NCBI RefSeq assembly: GCF_035918015.1
Contig: NZ_CP109132.1
Coordinates: 1,178,001 to 1,242,000 of the forward strand
Reading direction: 5' to 3'
From: Streptomyces sp. NBC_01754
GTDB lineage: Bacteria; Actinomycetota; Actinomycetes; Streptomycetales; Streptomycetaceae
DNA length: 64,000 nt
The notes under the pieces were generated by a model, which saw only the letters and a program-made list of their open reading frames with translations, did no database searches and was not told the origin of the DNA. The stretch's first letter is position 1. Each line of letters opens with the position of its first letter. Shown here piece after piece: positions 2,378 through 22,723 of this stretch. A program made the position numbers and the translations under genes.

Positions 2378-4696
2378 TCAGGGCCGGCCGGGCGGCTTCG
2401 GATCGATGATCTGGAGCCGCAGTTCGGAGGAGTACCGCCGGCCTCGCCCGTCGGTCAGCCAGGCGTGTTCGGCCGTGGGCAGCGCCTCGGTGACGATCAC
2501 CTCCACGCCGTCGCCGCCCTTGGCCCGGGCCCCGCGCAGCATGGTGCAGAGCAGGCGCACGTACACCGGGCTGGTGAAGTCGACGAACTGCGGCTTGATG
2601 TCGGTGGCGACCCGGACGTAGACCTGCTCCGGCATGTCCGAGCTCCGCCGCCAGCGGCGCGCCGCCACGTACCGCCGGCGCTCGCCGGTGACGTCGGCCA
2701 GCCCGCAGGCGCCGACCGTGGACCGCCAGGTGCGGCGGACGAGCACGAGGTCGTCCACCGTGATCCGCGGCGTGTGGCCGCCGGCGCCGGCCAGCTTCCA
2801 GGTGTCGAAAGCCTGGAGGCCCAGCATGTTCGCGAAGACCTCCAGGACCGGCCACCGCCGGCCGTCCCGCGCGCGGGCGACGAGCCCGTCCGGTGTGTCC
2901 GTGACGGTCAGGGCCGTGACGGGTACGAGCCGGTCGGGGTCGGCTCCCGGGGCCGGGGCGAAGCCCAGTTCCACATCGTCCGGCCCGTGCATCCAGTACG
3001 CGTTGCGGGAGCAGTGCCGCGGCCAGTCGTGCGGCAGCAGCAGGCGGACCCGGCTGTCCGGCAGGTCGGCGGCCAGGGCCTCGCGCAGCACCTTCGGTTC
3101 GGGGTGTCCGAGCGCGAAGAACTGCGTGTCGAACGCGGCGGAGGCGATGTGCAGCTCGCCGAGCACGAGGGTGTAGTCGCCGCGTGCCAGCGCCTCGGCG
3201 TCGGTGGCGCACAGGTGCACGTCCGGGCTGTGCACCCGTGCCTCGGACCAGCCCGGCCGGCCGGCGGGGAACGCGTCGGCGACACGGGCGCCCAGCTCCT
3301 CGGCGGTGAACCGCAGTTCGGCGGTGCCGTGGGGGACGTCCTCCAGTCCGAGCACCGCCGTCCACCGGCCCAGGAAGTCGGCGACCACCGGGTCCGCGGG
3401 CCGCTCGTCGCCGAAGGCCAGCGCCTGGGCCATGAACCACAGCTCCCGCAGCGGTACCTCCGCACCGCCGGCGTCGGCGGCCAGCTCGCGGTACAGCTCG
3501 GTGAGCGCCGCCGTGTACGCCTCCGCGATCCGGGCCGACAGCCAGCGCGCCGACTGGAGCAGCGGCGCCAGACCGGCCAGCCGGGCCAGCACGTCCCCGC
3601 CCACGGTGACGTCCAGGTCGCGGACGCCGTCCAGATGGCACAGGGTGCGGGCGGCGTACGTCTCGCCGGGCCGCCGCCGGGCGTCCTGGCCGGTGATGCC
3701 GGTGAAGGTGTCCTCCAGCGCGGCCATGGACCGGGCGAGTTCGTCAGGGCCCTCGGCGGCGGCCACCGCGTCGCGGGCGTCGCACAGCCGGTCCATCGTC
3801 CCCAGCGCCCACGCCCGGGCCCCGGCGTCGCCGATGCCGTCCAGCCGCTCGCGCAGCAGCCGTTCGGCGCCGAGGTCCATCGGCAGGTCGAAACCGAGCC
3901 GCAGGATCCCGGCGGCGGCGAGCTCGTCGAGCTGGGCGTACACGTCGGCCGGGCGGCGGAACGGGCCGGTCGCGGTCAGCCCGGCCGCGAGCTCGCCGGC
4001 CCGCCGTCGCCCGTCGCAGCGGGCCACCAGCTCGGCGGTGGCGGCCGGCAGGTCCTGCGCGGGCCGGTTCGGCCACAGCAGCCGGCGGCCGTCGAGGGTC
4101 AGTTGCGGCTGCCGGGCCACGGGCAGCCAGGGACGCAGCCGCTCGTCGGTCGCCAGGTACGCCGCCAGCGCGTCGAGCGCCCACCACTCGAAGTGCACCG
4201 CGGTGTCCCGGACGAGCGCCGGCCCGTGGGCGATCTCCAGTCGCGGGCCGCCGTTGCCCACCTGCGTCCAGCACATCGGGCCGAAGAAGCCGATCGTGTC
4301 GTTCTTGGCGCAGTACCGCTGCCAGTACTTGGCGACGATCTCCTCGCGGCGACGGCGACGTTCGTTGCGCCGGGCCGCGGGTCCGTCGCGCAGCACCCCG
4401 GCCACGGAGCTGAGCGCTCCCGGATTCTGCCAGGTGACCGCCTGGCGGAACAGCGGGTCGGCGCACACGTCGTGGACCGCCCGGCCGAGTCCGGTCATCG
4501 CCTCGGCGAACGCGGCGTCGACGCCGTCGGTCCCGCCGGCACCGTCCAGGTGCCGGTCCACGGTCCGGGCCAGCTCCGGCGCGCAGAACGCGGCGACGCC
4601 GTCGGCGGGGAACCCGGCGGAGCGCACCAGGGCATGCCGCCACACGCTCCAGGAGGTGCCGGGCAGGGGGACGAGATGGTCGGGCAAGGTGGTCAC
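2378..4696 (-). CDS. LanB-like aminoacyl-tRNA-dependent domain protein (lantibiotic dehydratase N-terminal family)
   Basis: The 772-aa protein matches the N-terminal (glutamylation) domain of lantibiotic dehydratases. It has the [14 protein letters not shown] region at about residues 127-140, helical middle repeats, and the family's C-terminal block ([29 protein letters not shown]). It ends there, so the C-terminal glutamate-elimination domain is absent. In this family such stand-alone proteins use aminoacyl-tRNA: small LanBs in thiopeptide pathways, or PEARL ligases that add an amino acid to a peptide C-terminus. The GTG start at 4696 overlaps the MbtH stop (GTGA), so the two are translationally coupled in the NRPS operon; the longer frame to 4858 only overlaps mbtH. 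No precursor peptide gene is visible. Its substrate is inferred to be a PKS/NRPS intermediate or product, which is unproven. Confidence 0.82.
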
Positions 4697-4929
4697 CGGC
4701 TCCTGGTCGTGGGCCCGGCTTCGTCCTCCATCGACCGCACCAGGCTCCGGGGCCGCATGTCCGTCCAGCGCGTCTCGACGTAGTCCAGGCACGCCTGGCG
4801 GCTGTCCTCCGGGTGTGCCACCGTCCATCCCCCGGGCACCTCGGCGAACGACGGCCACAGCGAGTGCTGGCCCTCGTCGTTGGCCAGGACCAGGAAGCGG
4901 CCCTCGGCGTCGTCGAACGGATTGGTCAT
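4693..4929 (-). CDS. MbtH-like protein
   Basis: This 78-aa protein carries the MbtH signature: NPFDD at the N-terminus, then [13 protein letters not shown] and the [12 protein letters not shown] ending. MbtH proteins bind adenylation domains of NRPSs and support their folding or activity. It sits 14 bp after the NRPS stop with a good ribosome site (AGGAG at the NRPS stop codon) and overlaps the next gene by a GTGA junction. It is therefore part of one NRPS-mbtH-LanB transcription unit and probably serves one or more of the four A domains next door. Confidence 0.95.
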
Positions 4930-4943
4930 GGTGTTCTGCTCCT

Positions 4944-7900
4944 TCAGGGCTGTCGTCCCAGCCGGACGCCGAGTTCGGCGCCGATCCGGCGCAGGTGCTC
5001 GGGCCGGGTCATGTCGTCGTGCGCGCAGGCGATCGGGTGCACGCGCACCTCACCGGTGGTGTGTTCGGCCCAGGCCCGCGGCCGGGGGGTCCCGGATTCC
5101 GCGGTCGCGTGGAACAGGTCGATGTCCCCGTCGAAGACCCCGGGGCGGTGTGCCCGGGCCAGCCGGGCGTTGTTGGCCACCACCCCGGCCAGCTCGGGGG
5201 CGAGGCCGGCGGCCGTCTCCGGGCCCAGCAGGCGGTGCAGCGCGGCCACCGGGTCGACGGGGACGTCCGGTCCGACGTCGGCCACCGGACTGGCGTCGAG
5301 GAGGGCCAGCAGTCCGACCGGCACCCCCTCGTGCCGCAGCCGCACCGCCAGCTCGTGCGCCACCAGCCCGCCGTAGGACCAGCCGAGCAGGTGGTACGGG
5401 CCGGTGGGCTGTACGGAACGGATCTGTTCCAGGTGGTCGGCGGCGACCTCGGCGAGCGAGCCGGGCAGCGGGCGGCCGGGAGCCGCGAGCCGGGACTGCA
5501 GGCCGTAGATCGGCCGTTCGGGGTCCAGGTGGCGCAGCAGGCCCGTGTAGCACCAGGCGAGGCCGGCGACGGGGGCCACGCAGAACAGGGGCGCCCGGCT
5601 TCCCTTGGTACGGATCGGCAGCAGCACACCCAGCCCGCGTTCGCCGCCGCCGTCCAGCCGCGCGGCGAGACCGCCCGCCGTCGGGTGCTCGAACAGCAGG
5701 CCGAGACCCAGTTCGGCGCCCAGCTCGGCACGGATCCGGCCGGCCAGCGTGGCGGCGAGCAGGGAATGGCCCCCGAGGTCGAAGAAGTTGTCGTCGACGC
5801 CGACGCGCGGTACGCCGAGCACCTCGGCGAAGAGCTGGCAGAGCAGCTCCTCGCGGTGGCTGCGGGCGGCGAGGCCCGCGCGGGCGGCCGGCGGCACGGG
5901 GAGCGCCCGGTGGTCGAGCTTGCCGTTCGGCGTCCGCGGCAGCGACGTGAGCGGGACGATCGCGTTCGGCAGCATGTAGGACGGCAGGGTGCGGCCCGCG
6001 TGCGCGCGCAGCGCCGCCGGGTCCACGTCGCCGCCCGCCTCCGGTACGACATAGGCCACCAGCCGCCGGTCACCGGGCCGGTCCTCGCGTGCGAGGACCG
6101 CCGCCCGGGCCACCCCGGGATGGGAGACCAGGGCCGCCTCGACCTCGCCCGGCTCGATCCGGAACCCCCGGAGCTTGATCTGCTGGTCGGCCCGGCCCCC
6201 GTACTCCAGCTGCCCCGCGGACGTCCAGCGGGCCAGGTCGCCGGTGCGGTACATGCGCTCTCCGGGCCGTCCCCACGGGCAGGCGGTGAACCGTTCGGCG
6301 GTCGGCGCGGGCCGGCGCAGATAGCCGTGCGCGAGCCCGGCGCCGGCGAGGTACAGCTCTCCGGTCACCCCGGGCGGGACCGGCTGGAGCCGTTCGTCGA
6401 GCACGTAGGCCCGGGTGTTGGCCAGCGGAGTACCGATCGGCTGCCCGTCCACCGGGCCGTGGAGACGGGCCGCGGTGGACCACACGGTGGTCTCGGTCGG
6501 GCCGTACAGGTTGGTGAGGTCGCCGCCGGGTCCGGTCAGCCGGCCTGCCAGTCCGGCGGGCATCGCCTCGGCGCCGGTGAACTTCCGTAGTCCGGGCAGG
6601 AGTTCCGGGGCGGCTTCGGCCAGGGACTGCCACAGCGAGGGGGTGGCGTGCACCACGGTGACCGAGGTCTCCGCGCACCGCCGGGCCAGCGCCACCGGGT
6701 CGCGGACCGTCCGCGGACCGGCCGGCACGACGGCGGCGCCGCTCAGCAGCGGGCCGTAGAGCTCCGGCACCGACATGTCGAAGGCCGCGGTGGTCACCGA
6801 CAGCATCCGGTCGCGCGGGGTCAGCCGCAGGACGCCGCGCAGGGCGGCCAGCAGGTTGGCCAGGGCCCCCCGGCCGACGACGACGCCCTTGGGCGGGCCG
6901 GTGGTCGCCGAGGTGTAGACGACGTACGCCGGGGCGGACGCGGGCGGCGGCCGGTCCACGTCGCCGGGGGCGGTGTCCGGGCAGCCGGCCGTGGCCAGTT
7001 CGCCGTCGTCCGGCACCGCGTCCAGCACCAGGTCGGGTGCGGCGTCCTCGAGTACGTGACGCAGGCGCTCGGAGGGGTGGCCGGGGTCCAGTGGCAGGTA
7101 CGCCGCTCCCGCCTTGAGCACCGCGAGCACGGCGACCAGCAACTCCTCGGTCCGCGGCAGCGGCAGGGCGACCAGCGCGCCCGGGCCGGCGCCCCGGCCG
7201 ATCAGGTGGTGCGCGAGCCGGTTGGCCCGCCGGTCGAGGGCGGCGTAGCGAAGTGTGCCGCTCTCGCCGATGACGGCGTCGGCCTCCGGGGTGTCCCGGA
7301 CCTGCCGCTCGAACGCGGTGACGACGTCCGGGGCCGCCGGTGTCCCGGTGGCGTTCCACTCGTGGAGCAGGCGCCGGCGCTCGGCGCCGGTGAGCAGCCG
7401 CGGGTGGCTGACGGGCTGGTCGATGTCGGCGGCCACGGCCGACAGCAGCGTCCCGAACCACCGGTGGAACGCCTGCGCGGTGGCGCGGTCGTACAGATCG
7501 CCGCGGTAGCCGAGGTGGCAGTCCAGGCCCTGCGGCGCGCCGCCGGTTCCGCGCCGCTCGGTGACCTCGAAGAACAGGTCGAACTGGGCGGTGGCCGGTT
7601 CGACCGGCAGTTCCTCGAAGCCGCCTTCCGCCGCCGTGGCCGTCTGGAGCGACAGCACGACCTGGAACAGCGGATGCCGGGCCGGTGTCCGGGCCGGGTT
7701 GAGCGACTCGACCAGGGACTCGAACGGCAGGTCCGCGTGCGCGTAGGCGGCCAGGTCCGTCTCCCGCACCTGTTCCAGCAACCGGCGGAACGTCGGATCG
7801 CCGCCGGTGTCGGTCCGCAGCACGAGGAAGTTGACGAAGCAGCCGACGAGCCGGTCCAGGGACGCGTCGCCGCGCCCGGACACCGGCGTGCCGATCGCGA

Positions 7901-10900
7901 TGTCGGTGCCCGCGCCCAGCCGGGTCAGCAGGGCGCTCAGCGCCGTCTGCACCACCATGAACAGGGTGGTCCCGGTGCGCCTGGCCACTCCCAGCAGGCG
8001 GGCGTGCAGGTCGGCGTCGACACCGAGGGCGACGGTACCGCCGTGGTCGCCGGTCGCGGCGGTGCGCGGCCGGTCGGTGGGGAGCGGGGTGCAGTCGGGC
8101 AGGCCGGCGAGTGTGCGGCGCCAGTGCTCCAGCTGACGGGAGTGCCGGCTGCCGGGCCGGTCCGGCGCGCCGAGCAGCCCGCGCTGCCACAGGGTGACGT
8201 CGGCGTACTGGACCGGCAGCGGCTGCCACCCCGGGGCGCGGCCCGCCAGCCGGGCGACGTACGCGGTGTGCAGGTCCTCTGCGAGGACACCCAGCGACCA
8301 GCCGTCGCCGGCGATGTGGTGCAGGACGAGCAGCACGACGGACTCGCCGGGGCCGGAGGTGAACAGGTGGGCGCGCAGCGGGGTCTCGGTGGCGAGGTCG
8401 AAGCCGCGGCCGAGCGCCGCGGCCATCGCCGCGGGCAGGTCCTCGGGGGCGCTCCCGACGATGCTCAGCGGTGCCCGGCCGTCGGCCTCCACCTGCTGGC
8501 AGGGGACGCCGTCGGGCCCGGTGGGGAACACCGTACGCAGGCTTTCGTGCCGGGCCACCACGTCGTCGAGGGCCTGCCGCAGCGCCGTGGCGTCCGCGTC
8601 GCCGGGCAGTCTCAGTGCCAGCGGCATGCTGTTGTTGACCGCGCCGCCGGCCAACTCGTCGAGGAACCAGAACCGCCGCTGACCGAAGGAGAGCGGCAGC
8701 CGCGCCGGCCGGGCCGCCGGCTCCGGCCTCGGGCGCACCGGGCCGCCTCCGCGGACGGCCAGCTCCGCCGCCAGGGCGGCCGGGGTGGGGTGCTCGAACA
8801 GCGTCCGGACGTCCACGTCCGCCCCGAGGGCGTCCCGCACCCGGCCGGTCAGCCGGGTGGCCAGCAGGGAGTGGCCGCCGAGGTCGAAGAAGTCGTCGTC
8901 GGCGCCGACCACGGGCGTGCCGAGCACGTCGGCGAAGAGATCGCACAGCACCTGTTCGGCCGGGGTGCGGGCCGCCCGGCCGCCTGTCGCGGCGGGCGGC
9001 GGCGCGGGCAGCGCCGCGCGGTCGAGTTTGCCGTTGGGGGTGACGGGCAGCTCCCGCAGCGCCACCACGGCGGCGGGCACGAGGGCGCGCGGCAGCGCCC
9101 TGGCCAGGCTCCGTCGGGCCTCGGCCCCGTCCAGCCGGGCGCCGGGCGCCGGTATCGCGTAGGCCACCAGCCGGGCGTCACCGGAGCGGTCCTCGCGGAC
9201 GACCACGGCCGCCCGCGCCACCCCGGGGAGGGCGGTGACGGCGGCCTCGATCTCGGTGAGCTCCACGCGTACCCCGCGGATCTTCACCTGCTGGTCGGCG
9301 CGCCCCAGGAACTCCAGCCGGCCGTCCGCCCCACGGCGGACCAGGTCGCCGGTGCGGTACATCCGCTCGCCCGGCTCCCCGAACGGGCAGGCCACGAACC
9401 GCTCCGCCGTGCGCGCGGGCCGGCCGAGGTATCCGCGGGCCAGTCCGGCGCCGGTGACGTACAGCTCACCGGGGGCGCCCTCGGCGACCGGCTGGAGGGT
9501 GGCGTCCAGCACGTACGCCCCGACGCGCGGCACCGGGCGGCCGATGGACGCGACGGCGGCGCCCTCCGCGGGCCCGCAGTCGGCGAGGGTGACCGTGTCG
9601 GCCGCCTCGGTCGGCCCGTAGGTGTTGATCATCCGGCGTCCGGCGGACCAGCGCTCCGCCAGCTCCGCCGGGCACGCCTCGCCGCCGACCACGAGCGTGC
9701 CGACGCCCGCCAGCGCGTCACCGGGCAGGGTGCCGAGGACGGCGGGGGTCAGCTGGACGTGGCTGAGCTCGCTCCGCTCGATCCAGCGTGCGAGGGGTTC
9801 GCCGGCGAGCACGGCGCCGGGCGGGGGCAGGACCAGTGCGGCTCCGGTGAGCAGCGCGGTGCACAGCTCCGACATGGCCGCGTCGAAGCTCCAGGAGGCG
9901 AGCTGCCCCACCCGGCAGCCGGCGTCCACGCCGAAGCGGTCGATCTGTACGGCGGCCATGTTCGCCACCCCGGCGTGGGTGACGGCGACCGCCTTGGGCG
10001 TTCCGGTCGAGCCCGAGGTGAACAGCACGTAGGCCGGGTTCTGCGGCCGCAGCGGAGCGAGGCGGTCGGCGTCGGTGAGGTCGGCGTCGTCCGGACCGGT
10101 GCCGGACCGGCCGGCGCCGGCCGGTCCGGCGAGCACCTCGTCGAGCAGCAGCGGAGCGACCCCGTCGGGCAGTGACCCGGCCGTCGCCGCGGTGGCCAGC
10201 GCCAGGCACGGCCGCGCCCCGGCGAACATGACCGCCACCCGCTGCGCCGGATACTCCAGGTCGACGGGGAGGAAGGCGGCGCCGGTCTTCGCCACCGCCA
10301 GGACGGCGACGACCGCGTCCACGGAGCGCGGCATCGCCACGGCGACCACCTGCTCGGGGCCGGCTCCGCGTGCGACCAGCTGACGGGCCAGCCGGTTGGC
10401 CCGGGTGTTGAGTTCGGCGTAGTCGTAGGAGCGGTCGCCGTCGGCGACGGCGGTGCGCTCGGCGCAGGCGGCGGCCCGGGCCTCGAAGAGGTCCGGCAGG
10501 AGGCCGTCCGACGGGAGCGGCGGTTCGCCGGCCCACGGCCGGGCCGCGCCCGCGGCGAGCCGGCGGGCCCGCTCGGCACCGGCCGGCGCCCGCAACCACC
10601 CCACCAGGGCCTCCGGTTGGGCCACGACGGTGCGCAGCAGCTCCGCCACCTGGTCGAGGACGTCCGCCGCCGCGGCCTCTCCGAAGGTGTCCGGCCGGTG
10701 GCGCAGCACGATCCGCAGCCGCTCGCGCGGTACCACGGTCAGGTCCAGCGTGTAGTGGGTGGCGTCGTGGCCGCCCGCCCCGGAGACCTGGAAGGTGCCG
10801 GCCGACCCGGTGTCCTCCTCCGGGCCCGCGGGGAAGTTCTCCACCACGACGGCGGTGTCGAAGAGCGCGTCGTGCCCGGCCGTCCGCTGGATCTCGCTGA

Positions 10901-13900
10901 GCGGCACATGGTGGTGGGCGAGCAGTTCCGCCTGGCCGGCGGCGATCTCCCGGAAGAGACCGGCCGCGGTGTCGCCCGGACGCAGCCGGATCCTCACCGG
11001 CACCGTGTTGATGAACAGCCCGAGCATCTCGCCGGATCCGTCCAGCTCGCCGGGCCGGCCCGACACCGTGGCGCCGAACACCACGTCGTCGCGGCCGGTC
11101 AGCCGGGCCAGCACCGTCGCCCATACCCCGAGCACGACGGTGTGCAGGGTCAGCCCGTGCGCGCGCAGCGCCGCGGTGAGGGCGGCGGTGGCGGCCGCGT
11201 CCAGTTCGGCCGCCCGCTCCCGCGGGCGGACCGGCAGGTGCCGCGTGCCGCGGTCGCCGGCCACCAGGGTGGGGCCCTCCAGCCCCGCCAGCGCCCGCGC
11301 CCAGGCCGCGACGGAGGCCTCCGTGTCCTGGCCGTCGAGCCAGGCGAGGAAGTCGCGGTAGGGGCGCACCGACGGCAGCGCGCCCGTGTCGCCCCCGTCG
11401 GCGGCCAGCCTGAGGAGTTCCCGTACGAAGAGGGGTGTGGACCAGCCGTCGATCAGCGTGTGATGGTGCGTCACCAGCAGCCGGTGCCGGTCCGCCGCCA
11501 GCCGGACGAGGGCCATCCGCATCAGGGGTGCCCGGGTGAGGTCGAACCGCTGGTCGCGGTCGTCGGCCTCCAGCCGGTCCAGCGCCGCCCGGCGGTCCGT
11601 CTCGCCCAGGGCGCTCAGATCGGTCTCCCGCCACGCGAAGTCCTCGTGGTCCGTGATCACCTGGACCGGGCGGCGCAGCCCCCGCCGGCGGAACGCGGCC
11701 CGCAGGTTCGGGTGCCGGCGCAGCATCAGCCGGCCCGCCCGCCGTACGGCGGCGGGGTCCACCGGGCCGGCCAGGTCGACGTAGAGCTGCATCGTGTACA
11801 GGTCGGGGCCGTCGTCGTACTCGCTGTGGAAGAGCAGGCCCTCCTGGAGCGGGGTGAGCGGCAGGATGTCCCGGACGTCCGGCTGCTCACGCGTCACCAG
11901 GTCGACCTCGTCCTGGTCCAGCCGGGCGAGCGGGAAGTCCGACGGGGTGCGGCCGCCGCCGTGTGCGCGCACGTGCGCGCACAGCGCGTGCAGCGCCCGC
12001 TGCCAGCCGGCGGCCAGTTCGGCCGCGGTGGTGTCGTCGAGCGCGCCGGGGGCCCAGGACCAGGTCGCCGTGAGGGCGGGACCGGAGGATCCGCCCACCA
12101 CCATCGCGTTCAGCTCGATGACATGAGGCATGGCCATGTCCGGATCGAGCCCGCCGGACAGCTCCCCCGACTCCGCGGTCGGGCTCCACGGGCCGCCGCC
12201 CCCCGACGGACCGTCGAACCGTCCCAGGTAGTTGAAGAGGATCTCGGCCGCGGCGCCGTCCGCGAGTGCGGCGGCCGAGCCGGGGTCGAGGTGGCGCAGC
12301 ATGCCGTAGCCGAGACCGCCGTCGGGCGCCGAGCGCAGCTGCTCCTTGACCCGCTTCACGGCGCGGCCGGTAGCGGGACCGCCGTCGAACAGCTCGGCCG
12401 GGTCGTGCTCGCCGAGCCGCAGCCGCACCGGGTACATGCTGGTGAACCAGCCCACGGTGCGGGTGAGGTCGACGCCTTCGGCGATCTCCTCGCGGCCGTG
12501 GCCCTCGACGTCGACCAGCAGGGTGCCGTCGTCCGGTTCCCCGGGCTCCCGGCGGTGCTCGGCGACGGCCATGGCCAGCGCGGTCAGCAGCAGGTTCTGG
12601 ACGGTGCCGCCGAAGGCGGCCGGGACCGTCGTCAGCAGTTCGGCCGTCAGCTCCGCCGGGACGGAGCACGTGCGGAAGCGGGCCCGTCCGTAGGTGTCCC
12701 GGTCCGGATCCAGCGGCCGCCGGGCGAGCGCCGGGGCCTCGGACGGGGCCGTCACCCGGAGCCAGTACGGCAGTTCGGCACGGCGCCCCGGTCCGCCGGC
12801 CTGCTCGTGGAGAAGCCGCGCCCACCGGCGCAGCGAGGTGCCCACCGCGGGCAGCCGCACCGGTTCCCCGGCGGCCGCGGAGGCCACGGCCGCCGTCAGG
12901 TCGGGCACGAGCACCCGCCAGGAGTATCCGTCGACGGCCAGGTGGTGGACGGACAGCAGGAGGTGGCCGGGCTCCGAGGGACCGGCGTCGAACCACACGG
13001 CCCGCAGCACCACACCGGCCGCGAGGTCGAATCCGCCCCCGTCACCGGCGCGTTCGGTACCGATGGCGGTACGCAGGGCCCGCCGGTCCAGCCCCCGCAC
13101 GTCGACGTGCCGCCAGCAGTCCGCCGCGGACACCGCTCCGCGCGGGGCGATCTCCGGCGTCCACCGCGGCAGCGGCAGCCGGAGCCGGAGTGCGTCGTGC
13201 CGGTCGAGCAGCGCGCCGATCGCCGTCAGCAACTGCTCCCGGGTGGTGCCGGCGGGGGTGCCGAGCAGGGTCGACTGGGCGAAGCCGTCCAGGGGCGCCG
13301 CGCGTTCGCGCAGCCAGGCGGCGATGGGCCACACCTCCAGCGGGCCGACCGCCGCGTCCGGGTCGTCCTCGGTCCGCAGGGCGGAGGCGACCGCCGCCAG
13401 TGCCGCCGCCGTCCGGTGCTCGAAGATCTGCCGGGCGGTCAGCCGCAGCCCCGCCGACCTCACCCGGGCCACCAGCTGGATCGAGGAGATGCTGTCCCCG
13501 CCGATCCCGAAGAAGTCGTCGTCCGGGCCCACGGAGTCCAGGCGCAGGATGTCGGCGACGGCGGCGCAGAGCACCCGTTCGCGTTCCGTGCCCGGCTCCC
13601 GGGGCGCACCGTCGCGCGGCGTCCCCGGGTCCGGCAGCGCGTCCCGGTCGACCTTCCCGTGGCGGTTGAGCGGCAGGGCGGCCAGCGGGACCACGGCCGA
13701 GGGCACCAGGTGCCGGGGCAGCGCTCCGGCGAGCCGGGCGATCAGCTCGGCGGGCGACGGCAGCTCCCGGCCCGCGCGCGGTGCGGCGTACGCCACCAGC
13801 CGGGCCGGTTCGCCCACCGCGAGCACGGCGGCCTGGCCGACACCGGGGCAGTCGGCCAGCGCGGCCTCGACCTCGGCCGGTTCGATCCGTACGCCGTGCA

Positions 13901-16900
13901 CCTGCACCTGCCGGTCGCCCCGGCCGAGGAACTCCAGCTCGCCCTCGGCGGTCCAGCGGGCCAGGTCGCCGGTGCGGTACATACGGGCGCCCGGCGGTCC
14001 GAACGGGCAGGCCACGAAGCGCTCCGCCGTGTCCGCCGGGCGGCCGAGGTACCCACGGGTGACGCCGGGGCCGGCGGCGTACAACTCGCCGGGCGTACCG
14101 GGCGGGACCGGCCGCAGCGCGGCGTCGAGCACGTGGACCGCCGCGTTCGCCACCGGGGTGCCGATGGGCACCCTCGCCCCCGGGGCGTCCGGGCGGCAGT
14201 CGGCGAGCGTCACCGTGTCGCCCGCCTCGGTGGGACCGTACGCGTTGATCATCCGCCGCCCGGGCGACCAGCGGGCCACGAGCTCCGGCGGGCAGGACTC
14301 GCCGCCGACGACCAGGGTGCGCACCCCGGTCAGGGAGCCTTCCGGCACCGTGGCCAGGACGGCGGGCGTGAGCTGTACGTGCGTCACCCGGGCCGTGTCG
14401 ATCCAGTGCGCCAGTGACGCGCCGACCAGCGGCTCTCCCTCGGGCGGCAGCACGACGGCGGCGCCGGCCGCCATGGCCGTGAGCCATTCGGACATGGCGG
14501 CGTCGAAGGTCCAGGGGGCGAGCTGCGCCATCCGGCTCCCGGCCTCGAGGCCGAAACGGTCCAGCTGGGCCCGGACCGTCGTGTGCGTGCCGCGCCGCGT
14601 GACGGCCACCGGCTTGGGGGTTCCGGTGGACCCCGAGGTGTGGAGCACGTAGGCGAGGTGGTCGGGGTGCGGCGGGGCGGGGGGCGCCGCGCCGTCCCTC
14701 TGGTCGGGCGCCTCCAGGTCCAGGACCGGCAGGGCGGGCGGCAGCGCGTCGCCGTGGCCCGCCGCCGTGACGGCGAGCAGCGCCTGCGCGCCGGACACCA
14801 GCCGGGCCTGCCGGACCGGCGGCAGACCGGGGTCCACCCACAGGAACGCGGCGCCCGCCCTGGCCACGGCCAGCGCCGCCACGATCAGCCCGGCCGTCCG
14901 GGGCAGCGCCAGTGCGACGACGGTGTCCGGCCCGGCGCCGCGTGCGGCGAGGAGCCGGGCGAGGCGGCCGGCCCGCCGGTCGAGTTCGGCGTAGCCGAGA
15001 ACGGTGTCGCCGTCCGTGACCGCGGTGCGGTCGCCCGCGAGCGCGGCCCATCCGGCCACCAGGTCGGCGGGTCCTTCGACGGGGCCGCCGGGCCGGACCG
15101 GACCGGCGGCCCGGGCCAGCAGCTCCCCGCGTTCGGCCGCGTCGGCCAGCGCCAGCCGGCCGACCCGCGCGCCGGGGGTGCCGGTCACCCCCGCGACGAC
15201 GCTCCGGAGCCGGGAGGCCACCGACCGGGCCTCGGCGGCGGACCAGAGGCCGGGCCGGTACTCCAGGCGCAGCAGCAGCCGGGTACCGGGCACCACGGTG
15301 AGGCTGAGCGGGTAGTGGGTGGCGTCCTCGACGCTCGCCCCGGTCAGCCGCAGGCCGTCCGCGCCGCCGGCGGACGCCGTGGTGCCGGTGTTCAGGAGCT
15401 GTCCGGCGTCGGGGTAGTTCTCGACCGTCGTCATCGTGTCGAACAGGTCGCCGCCGGCGTCGCGCTGGATGTCGGCGAGGGCCGTGTGCTGATGGGCCAG
15501 CAGTTCGGACTGCTCGTCCTGGACGCGCCTGAGCAGGGCGGTCAGGGTTTCCTCCGGCCGCACCCGGATCCGTACCGGCACGGTGTTGGTGAACAGGCCG
15601 ATCATGCGGTCGACGCCGGGGATCTCCGGCGGACGGCCAGCCACCGAGCCGCCGAAGACGACGTCGTCGCGGCCGGTGAGCTGGCCGAGCACCACCGCCC
15701 AGGCCGTCTGCGCCAGGGTGTTGAGGGTGACGCCGGCGGCGCGCAGCGCGGCCGAGAGCGCGGTGGTCTCCTCCGCGGAGAGCGGCACGTCCACCCTCTG
15801 CGGCGGGACGGGGCGCCGGGCCACGGCCTCGCCCGGCGCCACGGCGCACGGGAGCGCCCCGTCCAGGGCCCGCCGCCAGGCCGCCCGGGACCGCTCCGGG
15901 TCCTGGGCGGCCAGCCAGACGAGGTAGTCGCGGAAGGCGGGCGGCGGCGGAGGCTCCGGGCCCCCCGCGTAGGCGGTCAGCAGTTCGTCGAGGAGCATCG
16001 GGGTGGACCAGCCGTCCATCAGGATGTGATGGCTGGTGAGGACGAGGTGGTGCCGGTCCTCGGCCAGCCGCAGCAGGCACATCCGGATCAGCGGAGGTGC
16101 GGACGGATCGAACCGGCGCGCCTTGTCCGTGGCCAGGAAGGAACGTATCTCCTCGTCCTGCCGGCCGGGGTCGAGCGGGCGCAGGTCCAGTTCCCGCCAG
16201 GGCATGGGGACCGGAGCGGGGATCACCTGCACGGGTTCGGCGCCGTCGGTCCAGAACCCCGCGCGCAGGTTGGGGTGCCGGCGCAGCAGCGCGGACCCGG
16301 CGGCGCGCAGCCGGCCCGCGTCCGGCCGGCCGGAGAGTTCGAGGACCAGCTGCACGGTGTAGACGTCGGGCGCCTGCTCGTCGTACCGGGCGTGGAAGAG
16401 CAGTCCCCGCTGGAGCGGCGAGAGCGACAGTACGTCGTGGTGGCCGGGGTGACGGGCGGCGAGCCGGTCCCGGTCGGCGGGGTCCAGGCGTACGAGCGGG
16501 GCCGGTTCGCCTCCGGCCGGGGCGCCGTCGGCCACCTCGGCGGCGGCCCGGGCCAGGGCCTCGGCGGTGCGGTGCCGGAAGACCTGCCGTGCGGTGATCC
16601 ACAGTCCGGCGGCGCGCGCCCTGGCCACCAGTGTGATCGCCGAGATGCTGTCGCCGCCCAGCTGGAAGAAGTCGTCGTCGGCACCGGCCTCGTCCAGGTG
16701 CAGGGCGTGCGCCACGGCCGCGCAGAGCACCTTCTCCCGTTCCGTCACGGGCGGGCGGCCGGCCCCTGGCCGGGCCGGGGGCGGGGTGGGCAGCGCGGTG
16801 CGGTCGAGCTTGCCGTTGGGGAGCAGCGGCAGGGCGTCCAGCACGGTGATCCGCGCCGGCACCATGTGCCGGGGCAGCACCGCGGCCAGCTCCCCGCGCA

Positions 16901-19607
16901 GCGCCTCGGGATCGGGTCCGGCCCCCGGTTCGGCCACCACGTGGCCGACGAGCCGCGGGGGGTCGTCGGCCGCCACCACCACCACGGCCTGCCGGACACC
17001 GGCGCACTCGGTGAGCGCCGCCTCGATCTCGCCCGGCTCGATCCGGTAGCCGCGGATCTTGACCTGCCGGTCGGTCCGGCCGAGGAACTCGAGGTCGCCG
17101 TCGTGGTTCCGGCGCACCAGGTCACCGGTCCGGTACATACGCGTGCCCGGCGCCCCGAACGGGTCGGCCACGAACCGCCCGGCGGTCAGGCCGGACCGGC
17201 CGGTGTAGCCGCGGGCGACATGGGGGCCGGCGACGTACAGCTCTCCCGGGACCCCGGGCGGCACCGGGCGCAGCCGGTCGTCCAGCACGTGGCAGGCGGT
17301 GTTGGGCAGCGGTCGTCCGATCGGCGCGACCGCGGTCGGCGGCTGCCGCCGGCCCGGCCATGTGGTGGCGACGACGGTGGTCTCGGTCGGGCCGTACCCG
17401 TTGACGAACGACACGTCGGCGCCCAGCCGCGCCACCAGCTCGGCCGGGCACGCCTCGCCGCCGGCGAAGACCACCCGGAGCGTGGGCGGCGGCCCCGCCG
17501 GGAGGGTGGCCGCGACGGGTGTGGGGGCGAGGAGGTGCGTCACCGCGTACCGGCGCAGCCAGTCCGCCAGCTCCGCGCCGAGGAGGGCCGGTTCGTGCGG
17601 GGTGACGACGAGCGCGGCACCGGCCAGCAGCGTGGACAGCAGTTCCAGCACCGAGATGTCGAAGGACCAGGACGACCGGTTGGCCACCCGGTCGTCCGGC
17701 CCGATGCCGAGCAGGGCGATGTGCGCGTGGGCGAGGTTGCTCAGCCCGGAGTGCGCGACCGCCACGCCCTTCGGCCGGCCGGTCGATCCGGAGGTGTACA
17801 GCACGTAGGCGAGGCCGGCCGGCCGCAGCGGGCCCGTCCGGTCGGCGTCGGTGAGGTCGGAGTCGTCCGTTCCGGCCAGCTCGGCGAGCAGGGCCGGGTC
17901 GTCCAGCGCCAGCACCGGGAGCCCGGACAGGTCCTGGTCCGCGGTCGCGGCGAGGGTGAGGACGAGCGCGGGCGCGGAGTCGGTCAGCAGGTGGTCCCGG
18001 CGGGGCCCGGGGAGGCCGGGATCGACCGGTACGTAGGCGGCGCCGGCCTTGAACACCGCGAGCACCGCGACGATCATCTGCGCGGACCTCGGCAGGACCA
18101 GGGCGATCCGCCGCTCCGGGCCCGCGCCGTGCCGGACGAGCAGCCGGGCGAGCCGGTTGGCGCGGCCGTTCAGCTCGGCGTAGCTCAGGCGGACGCCGTC
18201 GCCGGCCAGCGCCGGGGCCTCCGGCCGCGCGGCCGCGCGGGCCTGGAACAGCTCCGTCACCAGCCCGGCCGGCGGCTCCCGGCGAGGGCCCCGGCCCTCC
18301 GCCGCCCTCGCCCGCTCCTCCCGCGCTCCGTCCAGCGGCAGGTCCGCCAGCCGGATCTCCGACGAGGCGGCGGCCAGGAACCTGACGTAGCGCTCCGCCA
18401 GGGCCTCGGCCGTGCGGCGGTCGAACAGGTCGGTGCGGAAGCTCAGCCGCCCCTCCTTCGGGCCCAGTTCAAGGACGAGCTCGTCCTTGGCGGTGCCGGT
18501 GTCGACCAGCTCGTTCCCGGACTCGGGCAGGTAGTTGAACGTGATCTGGCAGAGCGGGGAGACACTGGGGTCGCGTTCGGGTGCCAGCTCCTCGACCAGC
18601 TTCTGGAAGGGCAGCTGGGAGTGCTCCAGCGCGTCGGCCACCGCGTCGCGGGTACGGGCCACCAGCTCGCCGAAGGCCGGGTTCCCGGAGGCGTCGGTGC
18701 GCAGCACGACCGTGTTGACGAACATGCCGATCAGCGCGCCGACCTCGGGCAGGACACGTCCGGACACGGGTACGCCGACCACCACGTCCGTACGGCCCGA
18801 GGTACGCGCCAGCAGGGCGGTGAACGCCGCGAGCAGCACCGTGAACGGCGTGGTGCCGCCGCGCCGCGCGAGCGCGGCCACCACGTCAACGGCCTCCTCG
18901 GGCACGGTGAACCGCACGGTGTCACCGGTGTTGCCGCGGACCGGGGGGCGCCGCCGGTCCAGCGGCAGGGAGTGCACCGGCGCCAGCCCGGCGAGCCGCC
19001 GTCGCCAGTACTCCAGGTCCGCTTCGAACTCGCCGTCGTCGTACCGCGAGCGCTGCCAGGTCGCGTAGTCGGCGTACTGCACGGGCAGCGGCGGCAGTTC
19101 GGCGGGACGGCCCTCGGCGGCCGCCCGGCACAGCTCGGTGACCTCATGGTCCAGCAGGGCCACCGAGGCGGCGTCGAACGCGCTGTGGTGGACCACCACC
19201 AGCAGCAGCCGGTCCTCCTCGGAGAGGCGGACCAGCCGGGCGCGGAACAGCGGCGCCCGTGTCAGGTCGAAGGGCTCCGTGGCCATCGCGGTGAGGAGTT
19301 CCCCGGTCCGGCGGCCGGCCGTCGCCCGCTCCAGGGACCGCAGGTCCTCCTCGTCCACGGTCAGTTCGACGCGTTCGTGGACGGTCTGGAGGAGCGAGCC
19401 GTCCGCCGCCTGCGCCAGGGAGGTCCGCAGGATCTCGTGGCGCCGCACGACGGTACGCAGGGCCACCGCCACGTCCGCGGCGGCGAGCGCGACACCGCGC
19501 AGCGACACCACGGTGGGGACGTTGAACGCCGGGGAGTCCGGGTCCAGCCGGCTCGCCAGCCAGACCCGCTCCTGGTCGAAGGAGGCCGGAGTACTCCACC
19601 CCGTCAT
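4944..19607 (-). CDS. Four-module nonribosomal peptide synthetase with epimerase and thioesterase
   Basis: With the ATG at 19607 (G-rich ribosome site; the frame also runs 74 codons upstream) the protein is 4,887 aa. Order: C1 (HHxxxD at 140), A1 (YTSGSTG near 604), PCP1 (Ser987, GGDSI), C2 (1193), A2 (near 1657), PCP2 (Ser2039, GGDSI), E (HHLAVDG at 2221, [15 protein letters not shown]), C3 (2715), A3 (near 3195), PCP3 (Ser3580), C4 (3763), A4 (near 4230, altered P-loop [11 protein letters not shown]), PCP4 (Ser4615), TE (GWSYGG Ser4744, late His in CAHDDM). By hand alignment to GrsA positions the specificity codes read roughly DILLFGGVVK, DASQVGADTK, DASQVGTDTK and DMPHFGLVWK. A2 and A3 are almost the same; I recognise no known substrate for any of them. 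Expected product: an acyl (polyketide) tetrapeptide with D configuration at least at residue 2, released by the TE. The first C domain probably accepts the PKS chain. Confidence 0.93.
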
Positions 19608-19804
19608 GGACGCCGCCCCCCGGTCCCCACTCGCTCTCCCGCCGCACGCCGAGTCTCCTCGGCCGTACGCCGGCCCGCCCGTTCCCGAGCCCGTCCGCGG
19701 AGGCACATGGTTCCACGCCCCGAAGCGCTCCCACAAGATCTTGACCGCTGCAGAAAGCCGTGCGCACACCGCCACTGCCCGCAAAAAGCCGCGCAGTCCG
19801 CCGA

Positions 19805-19827
19805 GTTGCCTGAAATATCCTGGCAAC
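19805..19827. promoter_or_regulatory. Inverted repeat, candidate operator (GTTGCC-N11-GGCAAC)
   Basis: A perfect 6-bp inverted repeat with an A/T-rich 11-bp centre lies in the divergent promoter region, 21 bp upstream of the candidate -35 of the radical SAM gene. Its size and place suit a dimeric regulator acting on both transcripts. No regulator gene lies in the visible part of the cluster. Confidence 0.4.
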
Positions 19828-19847
19828 AACTCGCACGATCAAGGCAG

Positions 19848-19876
19848 TTGGCCCGGCGCACCCCGTGGACTACGCT
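19848..19876 (+). promoter_or_regulatory. Candidate promoter of the radical SAM gene
   Basis: TTGGCC (19848-19853) and TACGCT (19871-19876) are 17 bp apart, as expected for a principal-sigma promoter, and lie 56 bp before the GTG start at 19932. Confidence 0.4.
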
Positions 19877-19931
19877 CCGACGCGGGGTGTGTGCCTCCGT
19901 CTCAGTCCTCCTCGCCGACGCGGAGCACCCT

Positions 19932-22019
19932 GTGAACATCACGATCGTCTTTCCCCCGGCCGCCGATCCTTCACTGCCCTACGGCTCCCTGCCCCTGCTC
20001 GGCTCGGTCCTGAAGCGGGCCGGATACTCGGACGTGTCGCTGCGCGACGTGAACCTCGAGGCGTTCGACGACCTGTGGCGACCGGACGCGCTGGCCGAGG
20101 CGCTGCACCGCGAGGGCGTCCCCGGCCGGACGAGCGGCACGGCGGCGGAGCTGATCACCGACATCGACGCGGCGCGCGCCATCCTGCGCGACCCGGTCGA
20201 CTTCTACGACCCGATGAAGCTCCTGTTCGCCAAGCGCCTGTTCCACCTCGCGGGCGACCTGCTCTCGGCGTCCCATCCACGGGTCCGGTTCGGCAAGTAC
20301 TCCTATTCGCCGAGCCCGTACGACTCCTACGAGGAGATCGAGGAAGCCGTCCGGGCCGACGCGGGCCCGCTCGCCCGGTACTTCGAGACGACCACCGTCC
20401 CGTCGCTGCTGGCCGCGGCCCCGAAGGTGATCGGCCTGTCCGTCCCGTACTTCTCCCAGCTGATCCCCGCCTTCATCCTGGCCGACCGCATCCGCGCGGC
20501 GGATCCCGGTGTCCACCTCACCTTCGGCGGCCCGGTGATCACCTGGGGCAAGGAGGTGCTGATGTCGGACGCGCGGTTCGGGCGCTGGCTGGACTCCTTC
20601 TTCGTCGGCGAGGCCGACGAGACGTTCCTGCACTTCGTCGACGCGCTCCACGGCAAGCGCGACCCCGCCGCCGTCGCCAACATGGTCCGGTACGTGGACG
20701 GCAGGGTCGTCGACCAGCTCGACGACCACTACCAGCTCGATCTGGACTGGTCGCCCACGCCGGACTTCACGATGATGCCGATGGACCGCTACTTCGCGCC
20801 CAAACGCATCATCTGCCTGATGCCCACCCGAGGCTGCTACTTCAACAAATGCGCCTTCTGCAACTACGCGTTCATCAAGATGACGCCGTACCGGATGCGC
20901 TCGCCCCAGCTCATCGCCGAGGACGTCGCCACCATCCGGCAGGCCACCGGCGAGGACGTGTTCTCCTTCGAGTCCGACGTGATGCTGCCCCTGCACCTGA
21001 AGCGGATATCCGAAGCCCTGATAGCCCGTGGCACGGACATCAAGTGGCACGGCGTGGCACGTTTCGAGAAGGGGATGACGGACGAGCTCTTCGCCACCAT
21101 GCGCCGGGCTGGCTGCGTGCGCCTGTACATGGGGATGGAGAGCGCCAACGAACGCGTGCTGGAGGCGATGGTCAAGGGGACCGACCGGCAGCGCATGTCG
21201 GACATCCTGCGCATGTGCGGCTCGGCGGGCATCTCCGTGGAGGCCGGGGTCTTCAGCGGCTTCCCGTCCGAGACGGCGGAGGAGGCCGACGACACCTACC
21301 GGTTCGTCCGCGACCACCGGCACGTCATCGCCCGTGCGGACGTGGGCACGTTCAGGCTGCTCAAGGGCGCTCCCATCGCGGACACCCCCGAGAAGTACGG
21401 GATCATCGTCCTCGGCGACCCCAAGAAGCGCTGGTACCACCTGGACTACCGGCACACGGAACCGCAGAAGACGGCGGACGGCGAGGCGGCCATGGAACGG
21501 ATCCAGCGCCTCTACCCGGAGGTCGCGCTGATCGACGTGCCGGAGGACATCCTCTACAACGCCGACGTGGGCCCGGACGCGTTCCGCCGATTCTTCGCCG
21601 CCGCCGGCGAAGGACCGGCGACCGGCTCGCGGGCGGTGCCGGACGAGACGTGGGTCGCCCTGTCCGCCGACTGCGAGCTTCAGCGGGTCCATGTGGCCAA
21701 CTCCGGGGCCGTGCACTTCGACGACCCGGCCGCACAGGACGCGCGCCCCGTCTTCGAGGTGTCCCGCATGACGCTGACCATCGCCGTCGACAGGGCGGCC
21801 TCGGCCCTGTACCCGCTGAGCCGTGCGGAGGAGTTCGTCCTGCGCCGCCTCGGAGAGGGCCCGATGCCGGCCGCCGGTCTGCGCGCCGAGATACAGGCGT
21901 ACGCGGAGTCGGCCCAGGACCGCGACGACACAGTCGACGTGAGCCTCCTGGACCACCTGGTGGCCCTGGGGGTCGTGGTCGTACAGCCGGTGGACGCCGT
22001 CGCCGAGGCAGCCCTGTGA
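19932..22019 (+). CDS. B12-binding-domain radical SAM enzyme with CX4CX2C motif
   Basis: The start is the GTG at 19932 (GGAG 6 nt upstream), where homology begins; the protein is 695 aa. The N-terminal half looks like a cobalamin-binding Rossmann domain (GSLPLLGSVLKRAGY, then GLSVPYFSQLIPAF and FGGPV). The radical SAM core has three Cys at 302, 307 and 310 in RGCYFNKCAFCNY. The first spacing is four residues, not the canonical three. Later blocks (MGMESANERVL, GVFSGFPSET) are typical of the family. About 120 C-terminal residues after 560 form an extra, unassigned domain. B12 radical SAM enzymes methylate unactivated carbons or catalyse rearrangements. Being divergent from the NRPS operon, it is a likely tailoring enzyme of the same pathway; the reaction cannot be told from sequence. 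Confidence 0.88.
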   Translation: MNITIVFPPAADPSLPYGSLPLLGSVLKRAGYSDVSLRDVNLEAFDDLWRPDALAEALHREGVPGRTSGTAAELITDIDAARAILRDPVDFYDPMKLLFAKRLFHLAGDLLSASHPRVRFGKYSYSPSPYDSYEEIEEAVRADAGPLARYFETTTVPSLLAAAPKVIGLSVPYFSQLIPAFILADRIRAADPGVHLTFGGPVITWGKEVLMSDARFGRWLDSFFVGEADETFLHFVDALHGKRDPAAVANMVRYVDGRVVDQLDDHYQLDLDWSPTPDFTMMPMDRYFAPKRIICLMPTRGCYFNKCAFCNYAFIKMTPYRMRSPQLIAEDVATIRQATGEDVFSFESDVMLPLHLKRISEALIARGTDIKWHGVARFEKGMTDELFATMRRAGCVRLYMGMESANERVLEAMVKGTDRQRMSDILRMCGSAGISVEAGVFSGFPSETAEEADDTYRFVRDHRHVIARADVGTFRLLKGAPIADTPEKYGIIVLGDPKKRWYHLDYRHTEPQKTADGEAAMERIQRLYPEVALIDVPEDILYNADVGPDAFRRFFAAAGEGPATGSRAVPDETWVALSADCELQRVHVANSGAVHFDDPAAQDARPVFEVSRMTLTIAVDRAASALYPLSRAEEFVLRRLGEGPMPAAGLRAEIQAYAESAQDRDDTVDVSLLDHLVALGVVVVQPVDAVAEAAL

Positions 22020-22122
22020 CGACGGACACTTGGAGACGGGGCCCGGGGTCCCGGCGGCGCCGAACCCGGGAAGGCCGGCGCGGAGAGTGCGCGCCGAAGT
22101 CGGTACCCGCCACGGCCGGCGG

Positions 22123-22158
22123 CCGCCCCGGAGCCCGCCCCGGAGCCCGCCCCGGAGC
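22123..22158. repeat. Three tandem 12-bp repeats
   Basis: Three exact copies of CCGCCCCGGAGC lie in tandem about 100 bp downstream of the radical SAM stop codon. The region is noncoding and no function is evident. Confidence 0.8.
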
Positions 22159-22227
22159 CCGTCATGGCGGAACGCCGGCGGCCGCGGCACGTGGCCTCGG
22201 CCGGACACGGGCGCCACGGGACGCGGA

Positions 22228-22270
22228 CGGCCCCCGTGTCCCGGACGAGCCGGTCGTGACACGGGGGCCG
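22228..22270. terminator. Hairpin terminator between convergent genes
   Basis: Perfect 13-bp arms (22228-22240 and 22258-22270) with a 17-nt loop lie between the radical SAM stop and the convergent DUF5997 gene. Confidence 0.7.
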
Positions 22271-22312
22271 CGGCGGGCGTCTGCCGGGCCCGGATGCCTC
22301 AGAGCCCGGGCG

Positions 22313-22723
22313 TCAGGGGCGTGCCTCGCCCTCGGACCGTTCGGCGGCGCGGGCCGCGTCGCGCTCCTTGATGCGCGCCGCCTCCTTGCGGACCTCCGCC
22401 TGGGTGGCGCGCTCCTTCCGGAGCCACTCGGGGTTCTCCTGCTTCAGCGCTTCGATCTGCTCGGTCGTGAGCGGTTCGGTGGCCCCGCCGCGGGCGAGGC
22501 CGGCGATGGAGACGCCGAGCTTCGACGCGACCACCGGCCGGGGGTGCGGACCGTTGCGGCGCAGCTCCTGAAGCCAGGCCGGCGGGTCGGACTGGAGCGC
22601 GTTCAGCTCGGTGCGCGTGACGAGGCCCTCCCGGAACTCTGCGGGGGTGGCCTCGAGGTACACACCCAGCTTCTTCGCCGCGGTGGCGGGCTTCATGGTC
22701 TGGGTGCTCTGGTGCGACGTCAT
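22313..22723 (-). CDS. DUF5997 family protein
   Basis: This small basic protein (136 aa) opens with TMKPATAAKKLGVYLEATPAEF and has two similar helical segments (LNALQSDPPAWLQELRRNGPHP and IEALKQENPEWLRKERA), as in the actinobacterial DUF5997 family. Its function is unknown. The start at 22723 is supported by a -10 hexamer (TACCCT) ending 6 nt before the ATG, which implies a leaderless transcript. It is divergent from the next gene, a pairing I recall as common in Streptomyces. Confidence 0.8.
   Translation of the reverse strand: MTSHQSTQTMKPATAAKKLGVYLEATPAEFREGLVTRTELNALQSDPPAWLQELRRNGPHPRPVVASKLGVSIAGLARGGATEPLTTEQIEALKQENPEWLRKERATQAEVRKEAARIKERDAARAAERSEGEARP

Follow-up and report, generated by a model that had tools for sequence, protein, structure and literature searches.

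What does a lantibiotic dehydratase-type (LanB) protein do in a gene cluster for an assembly-line product? This question is raised by a 64,000-nucleotide stretch of Streptomyces sp. NBC_01754 (the window; bases 1178001 to 1242000 of a 7.74-Mb contig, NZ_CP109132.1), in which a stand-alone LanB-type gene, here called LanB1, lies behind the gene of a four-module nonribosomal peptide synthetase (NRPS). A second such gene, LanB2, is located left of the window in the same cluster, which also encodes a polyketide synthase (PKS). We consider it quite likely that both proteins are ligases resembling the peptide aminoacyl-tRNA ligases (PEARLs), of the SnaE type, and that they extend the peptide of the PKS/NRPS pathway from aminoacyl-tRNA. 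Gene linkage, the predicted LanB fold, residues of the tRNA and ATP sites, and recurrent association with NRPS and PKS genes were all observed; neither an elimination domain near the LanBs nor a precursor peptide gene in the adjoining gaps was seen. From these observations we infer that ligase chemistry takes place, that the NRPS/PKS product is the substrate, and that one residue is added per LanB. LanB1 and LanB2 would each use ATP to phosphorylate the free carboxylate of an assembly-line intermediate or product. The amine of an aminoacyl-tRNA would attack the phosphorylated carboxylate, and hydrolysis of the tRNA would leave a molecule longer by one amide-linked amino acid.

Gene context and predicted fold of LanB1

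2378-4696, minus strand: LanB1, a stand-alone LanB-fold (PF04738) protein of 772 aa; putative PEARL-like aminoacyl-tRNA amide ligase
4693-4929, minus strand: mbtH, an MbtH-like protein of 78 aa (sequence and translation)
4944 to about 19610, minus strand: tetramodular NRPS, C-A-T-C-A-T-E-C-A-T-C-A-T-TE (C, condensation; A, adenylation; T, thiolation; E, putative epimerization; TE, thioesterase; Pfam and motifs)

The genes follow one another in the order TE-ending NRPS, mbtH, LanB1. Between the NRPS stop (ending at 4944) and the mbtH ATG (starting at 4929) there are 14 bp, and the mbtH stop overlaps the LanB1 start in the sequence GTGA, which indicates translational coupling. The LanB1 reading frame was taken from this GTG; the MbtH label is based on sequence and position. 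This arrangement, in which LanB1 lies 14 bp and one small gene behind a tetramodular NRPS, had been described in the first-pass annotation of the window and was confirmed from the sequence. The NRPS contains four A domains, four T domains, five condensation-superfamily domains (C1, C2, E, C3, and C4), and one TE. Judging from its motifs, one of the five is probably an epimerization domain, and translation presumably starts at Met 74 of the listed open reading frame (ORF). The specificity-code motifs of the A domains were extracted, and no substrate was called from them.

PF04738 was the sole Pfam family matched by LanB1 at an E value of 1e-3 (124.7 bits versus a cutoff of 28), and PF14028, the elimination domain, was not matched. 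The AlphaFold model had a mean pLDDT of 93.8. Its top structural matches were TbtB, MadB, MibB, NisB, and GodF, including two (TbtB and NisB) of the three with which a structural comparison had been proposed at the outset; next came ATP-grasp ligases of the glutathione synthetase type. With PF04738 above its cutoff and a predicted TbtB/NisB-like fold along its whole length, LanB1 proved to be what had been supposed from the letters alone, a stand-alone LanB-type protein without an elimination domain. A module resembling the recognition element (RRE) of ribosomally synthesized and posttranslationally modified peptides (RiPPs) is kept in the LanBs. A single-sequence search of the PDB with LanB1 gave no match, nor did a search of NCBIfam with LanB1 or LanB2.

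Relation to characterized enzymes

The combination of such an enzyme with an assembly line is characterized once. SnaE, annotated as a lantibiotic dehydratase, belongs to the sna (threopeptin) cluster of Stackebrandtia nassauensis. According to the report on it, the cluster was expressed, inactivation of SnaE removed the threonine-bearing products, and the enzyme was needed for the addition of threonine in amide linkage, for which ATP- and aminoacyl-tRNA-dependent chemistry was proposed (Yu and van der Donk 2024, PMC11212132). The first-pass annotation had known of no characterized case, which is out of date because of this work; the kind has been known since then. The same report puts the number of NRPS/PKS clusters that encode such enzymes at around two thousand, describes most of these enzymes as stand-alone and some as fused to a TE or T domain, and states that no precursor genes were identifiable (PMC11212132). 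Among the matches listed by searches of open-access literature, with most subscription papers outside this coverage, no second characterized NRPS case was found.

Like the sna cluster, the cluster studied here combines an annotated lantibiotic dehydratase with NRPS, PKS, and MbtH genes, with no elimination domain and no precursor seen; likeness to SnaE was judged from the published description. With TglB, BhaB, and AmmB, LanB1 shares the LanB-type fold, the Tyr and Arg of the tRNA site, and the Asp, Glu-x-His, and Glu-x-Arg of the ATP site, by published residue numbers. PEARLs proper work on carrier peptides (PMC11212132). In their reaction, a carboxyl phosphate is attacked by the tRNA-borne amino acid as nucleophile. 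Unlike TglB, BhaB, and AmmB, LanB1 and LanB2 have an assembly line as partner, and no carrier peptide gene was recognized in the gaps. The split LanB glutamylation proteins TbtB and GodF are also stand-alone and are among the closest solved structures. However, TbtB lacks the PEARL Asp and Arg, both of which LanB1 has, and uses no ATP, and proteins of this type are accompanied by an elimination domain, whereas none lies near LanB1 and LanB2.

Ligase or dehydratase

In TglB, Asp542 and Arg803 are published as conserved only in PEARLs, split LanBs having Tyr and Leu at these positions; further residues listed are Glu801, Glu564, and a conserved His. Mapped through the published TglB numbers, the probable counterparts in LanB1 are D492, E514-x-H516, and E758-x-R760. 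The Asp-to-Glu spacing is 22 residues in both proteins. All five residues were present in 55 of 56 aligned proteins, the remaining one ending before the last two. A further 35 rows had all five in 28 cases and did not cover the sites in 5, while L070 and L031 each deviated at one place; the L031 frame changes near its end. The plasmid rows had all five (4/4).

As controls, we used 11 LanBs with an elimination domain either fused or within 7 kb, which came from one 198-genome sample and included two from the window's own genome. D492 and E514 were found in none of them (L005 has D at 514). The same was true of R760, as read from the raw sequence in eight rows and from the alignment in L095, L096, and L097. 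An Arg at column 760 in five fused controls (L086 to L090) was rejected as an artifact of the length-keeping alignment, the raw sequences reading E-x-V. E758 is common to the controls, and H516 occurs in 2 of the 11. Loss of tRNA-site residues, named earlier as evidence that would speak against a role for tRNA, was not observed in the alignment: the Tyr-xx-Arg for the tRNA 3' end is kept in LanB1 (Y124 and R127). This motif does not discriminate, as controls have the Arg in 11/11 and the Tyr in 10/11. A quick tree with long branches meeting, from which SnaE and TglB were absent, split 60 rows from 11 rows with an SH-aLRT of 100; it was used only for this split and for placing the L012 and L013 rows of the LanB1 and LanB2 types.

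When the whole genome was searched for PF14028, two matches only were obtained, at 4.05 and 6.11 Mb, and no elimination domain was located within 2.8 Mb of LanB1 and LanB2. The two matches lie near the other two LanBs of the genome (L005 and L003), each of which has its elimination domain within 7 kb and is probably part of an ordinary RiPP cluster. No precursor or carrier peptide gene was recognized beside LanB1 and LanB2, in agreement with the first-pass annotation; intergenic gaps only were covered, with no precursor profile search. The gap between the PKS gene and LanB1 lacks ORFs of at least 20 aa. Three GTG-start ORFs of 42 to 52 aa occupy the gap between LanB2 and a divergent 367-aa gene, and the gap before the NRPS gene holds one ORF of 109 aa and one of 112 aa.

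LanB1 is probably no dehydratase. Its residues suggest that a carboxylate is activated with ATP and then attacked by aminoacyl-tRNA, a reaction that we favor over esterification of a hydroxyl because the PEARL residues are present in LanB1 and three of them are missing in all 11 controls. Among the roles suggested before, addition of a tRNA-borne amino acid to a thiotemplated product would be the most likely, and hydroxyl activation is disfavored on the same grounds. In the latter case, the LanBs would depend on glutamyl-tRNA and esterify a Ser, Thr, or beta-hydroxyl of an intermediate, and another enzyme, e.g., the dehydratase domain of the PKS, would eliminate glutamate to yield an alkene or dehydroamino acid. 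A fold as in TbtB, MibB, and NisB, together with PF04738, is consistent with this, and modules bearing alcohols are plausible. Nevertheless, the retained D492, E514, and R760 and the distance to the nearest elimination domain argue against it, as does amide formation by SnaE (PMC11212132), and we regard it as unlikely.

Distribution of related loci

When genomes from 84,980 species were scanned once for two LanB1/LanB2 peptide patterns, 65 related loci were obtained, at each of which at most 10 kb of DNA per side was examined. Some share one genome, and counts therefore refer to loci. The hosts include Streptomyces, Amycolatopsis, Nonomuraea, Micromonospora, Catellatospora, and others, as well as Acidobacteriota, Myxococcota, and Pseudoduganella. 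A, C, or ketosynthase (KS) domains were present in 57 of the 65 loci and in 51 of the 54 that are at least 12 kb long. Five of the eight loci without them (L054, L061, L066, L070, L072, L073, L074, and L075) are under 10 kb. Because A, C, or KS domains accompany the LanBs in 57 of 65 loci, the linkage of LanBs with NRPS and PKS genes is no chance association. The LanB feature is thus confirmed as real and recurrent, and PEARL-like chemistry is likely, judging from the conserved residues. Four stretches of L054, a Myxococcales contig, resemble LanB, and its 22 kb yielded no A, C, or KS domain.

Within the genus of the window, 26 of 295 genomes matched at an E value of 1e-60, the window's own counted, and matches outside that genome showed 33 to 40% identity. 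When a phylum-wide sample of 396 genomes was searched with the LanB alignment at the same threshold, two matched (the window's own and one congener), and the sna locus was not found. Near-identical LanBs occur in Streptomyces sp. Ncost-T10-10d (on two contigs) and S. camponoticapitis, with identities of 92% and 89%, respectively, for LanB1 and 94% and 88% for LanB2 (the last over a partial sequence). They adjoin the same NRPS and PKS domains as in the window. Sixteen plasmid records matched, three of which were examined: L104 carries NRPS, MbtH, and LanB genes in window order, L105 has no NRPS gene listed beside its LanB, and L106 has a group of LanB, A, pyridoxal phosphate (PLP) enzyme, carrier protein, and LanB genes at 14980-22580.

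In the genus, LanBs repeatedly occur in pairs, at a distance of about 5.3 kb. In the window clade, two LanBs each were found in L012, L013, L017, L027, L036, L037, and L038 (one of the pair being incomplete in L036 and L037) and three in L030; the tree places members of the LanB1 clade and of the clade containing LanB2 side by side in L012 and L013. L106 and L053 represent small Streptomyces LanB-A-PLP enzyme-carrier-LanB groups that include no C-domain gene. In L106, there is an NRPS gene about 13 kb upstream, and none was found in the 22 kb of L053.

Such groups would suit LanBs that work in the NRPS direction, aminoacylating the alpha-amine of a carrier-bound aminoacyl unit from aminoacyl-tRNA in place of a condensation step, and so would L055, in which one frame runs through C, A, T, and LanB. 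The nucleophilic role of the tRNA-borne amino acid in PEARLs argues against this alternative, and so does the fact that, to our knowledge, no LanB-fold enzyme acylates an amine; we rate it below hydroxyl esterification. Least probable is a role of the LanBs on an unlinked RiPP or carrier peptide, their place in the cluster being accidental: the retained RRE-like module and the carrier peptides of PEARLs proper fit this idea, but the NRPS/PKS linkage holds across Actinomycetota, Acidobacteriota, and Pseudomonadota, LanB1 is translationally coupled, no precursor was seen in the gaps, and LanBs share frames with NRPS domains in related loci.

LanB2 and the extent of the cluster

The cluster spans about -15.7 kb to +22 kb in window coordinates. 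Its further features are as follows, with L009 coordinates for most of those left of the window.

L009:2263-3624, minus strand: DUF6002 protein
L009:3621-5393, minus strand: stand-alone KS without an acyltransferase (AT) domain, adjoining an A-T gene
L009:7345-8448, minus strand: conserved 367-aa protein with no Pfam family; dehydrogenase-fold model
L009:8725-11100 (window -9275 to -6900): LanB2, 49% identical to LanB1, with its terminus 6.9 kb left of the window
L009:11093-14647: A-T-C-T NRPS, its start overlapped by the LanB2 end
about window -3315 to 2309 (3' part, 3-2309, in the window), plus strand: PKS, KS-AT-KR-DH-T (KR, ketoreductase; DH, dehydratase; Pfam and translation)
about 19932-22019, plus strand: radical SAM protein, divergent from the NRPS (PF04055, translation, and codon-position GC; predicted start)

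LanB2 is the first gene of the operon of the A-T-C-T NRPS and the PKS, the end of which and the convergent LanB1 are 68 bp apart. The 367-aa gene, the A-T gene, the KS without AT, and DUF6002 are encoded to the left of LanB2 in the opposite orientation. The radical SAM protein is a probable tailoring enzyme and probably marks the right border; past it, one gene encodes a DUF5997 protein and another a protein with a LysR substrate domain, and we place both genes outside the cluster.

The model of the 367-aa protein best matches malate/lactate dehydrogenases (TM about 0.5), and because of this resemblance the idea that it supplies a branched building block as an opine dehydrogenase was abandoned. 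DUF6002, which is 60 to 68% identical across 13 other aligned cassettes, was named in no paper found by an open-access literature search. That it is a PLP enzyme was an idea by eye only and was rejected: there was no PDB match, and hhalign gave a probability of 0.3% against a PALP protein.

The cassette KS has Asn instead of the second catalytic His, both in the window cluster and in 20/20 loci with the 367-aa gene or DUF6002; by alignment, the triad in these loci is Cys-His-Asn in 18 and Cys-Ser-Asn in 2. Cys-His-His was found in all seven A-T-adjoining KSs from loci with neither gene in the DNA examined. These loci share ancestry, so that the cases are not independent. Cys-His-Asn is reported as the triad of the TAS1 KS, which cyclizes tenuazonic acid (PMC8878860), and CalA3 as a Cys-His-His KS able to form C-N bonds (PMC10006239). 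Because its Asn triad is as in TAS1 and a KS that forms C-N bonds is known, the cassette KS may well not be a decarboxylative chain extender.

Source of the acceptor carboxylate

The acceptor carboxylate in the sna pathway is described as the product of a ureido-forming C domain marked by EHHxxHDG (PMC11212132). This motif is in none of the C domains of the window cluster, which read HHSAFDA, HHILMDG, HHTLIDG, HHIAGDG, and HHAVFDG, and ureido formation was rejected for this cluster on that basis. Among 76 C-like segments of related loci, one of which does not cover the site, EHHxxHDG occurs once (L051). In the A-T-C-T protein of the window cluster, the C-domain sequence at this site is HHAVFDGWS, which also occurs in 27 of the 76 segments. 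The two clusters differ further in their architecture. The sna cluster has one LanB, an A-T-C-A-T NRPS that includes the ureido C domain, and a KS-AT-T PKS, whereas the window cluster has two LanBs, KR and DH domains in its PKS, an additional four-module NRPS, and the A-T/KS/DUF6002/dehydrogenase-fold cassette. The published reason for a PEARL, ureido reversal, apparently does not hold for this branch.

In 20 of the 65 related loci, LanB is immediately preceded by a TE, and in 7 of those 20 (L017, L025, L028, L029, L035, L045, and L058) the two share one stop-free frame with no N runs. Such frames, like the C-A-T-LanB frame of L055, suggest, but do not prove, single proteins. An apparent LanB-NRPS fusion in L036 was an artifact of a 2.3-kb N run and was not counted. 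Because TE so often directly precedes LanB, with a shared frame in seven loci, thioesterase release is our favored guess for how the acceptor carboxylate is freed, though we put it at somewhat less than even. Freeing the acid for the adjoining ligase or, alternatively, removing the tRNA would explain a TE at this position. In the window's genome, no TE of the LanB-preceding type was found beside LanB2.

Implications for assembly-line products

A broader reading is possible but doubtful: a widespread, mainly actinobacterial family of assembly lines may use PEARL-like ligases without ureido reversal, the carboxylate coming from a TE or from the A-T/Cys-His-Asn KS/DUF6002/dehydrogenase-fold unit, and one to three LanBs adding as many tRNA-derived residues. 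If this were true, the product would be part thiotemplated and part tRNA-fed, and the LanB copy number would set the number of residues added. The branch without ureido formation raises the question of which carboxylate is extended, and proteins with a TE or a whole module in one frame with LanB would provide a compact form in which to test it. If LanB1 and LanB2 are indeed ligases, they would add residues that no module encodes, and product predictions made from modules alone would be wrong for such clusters.

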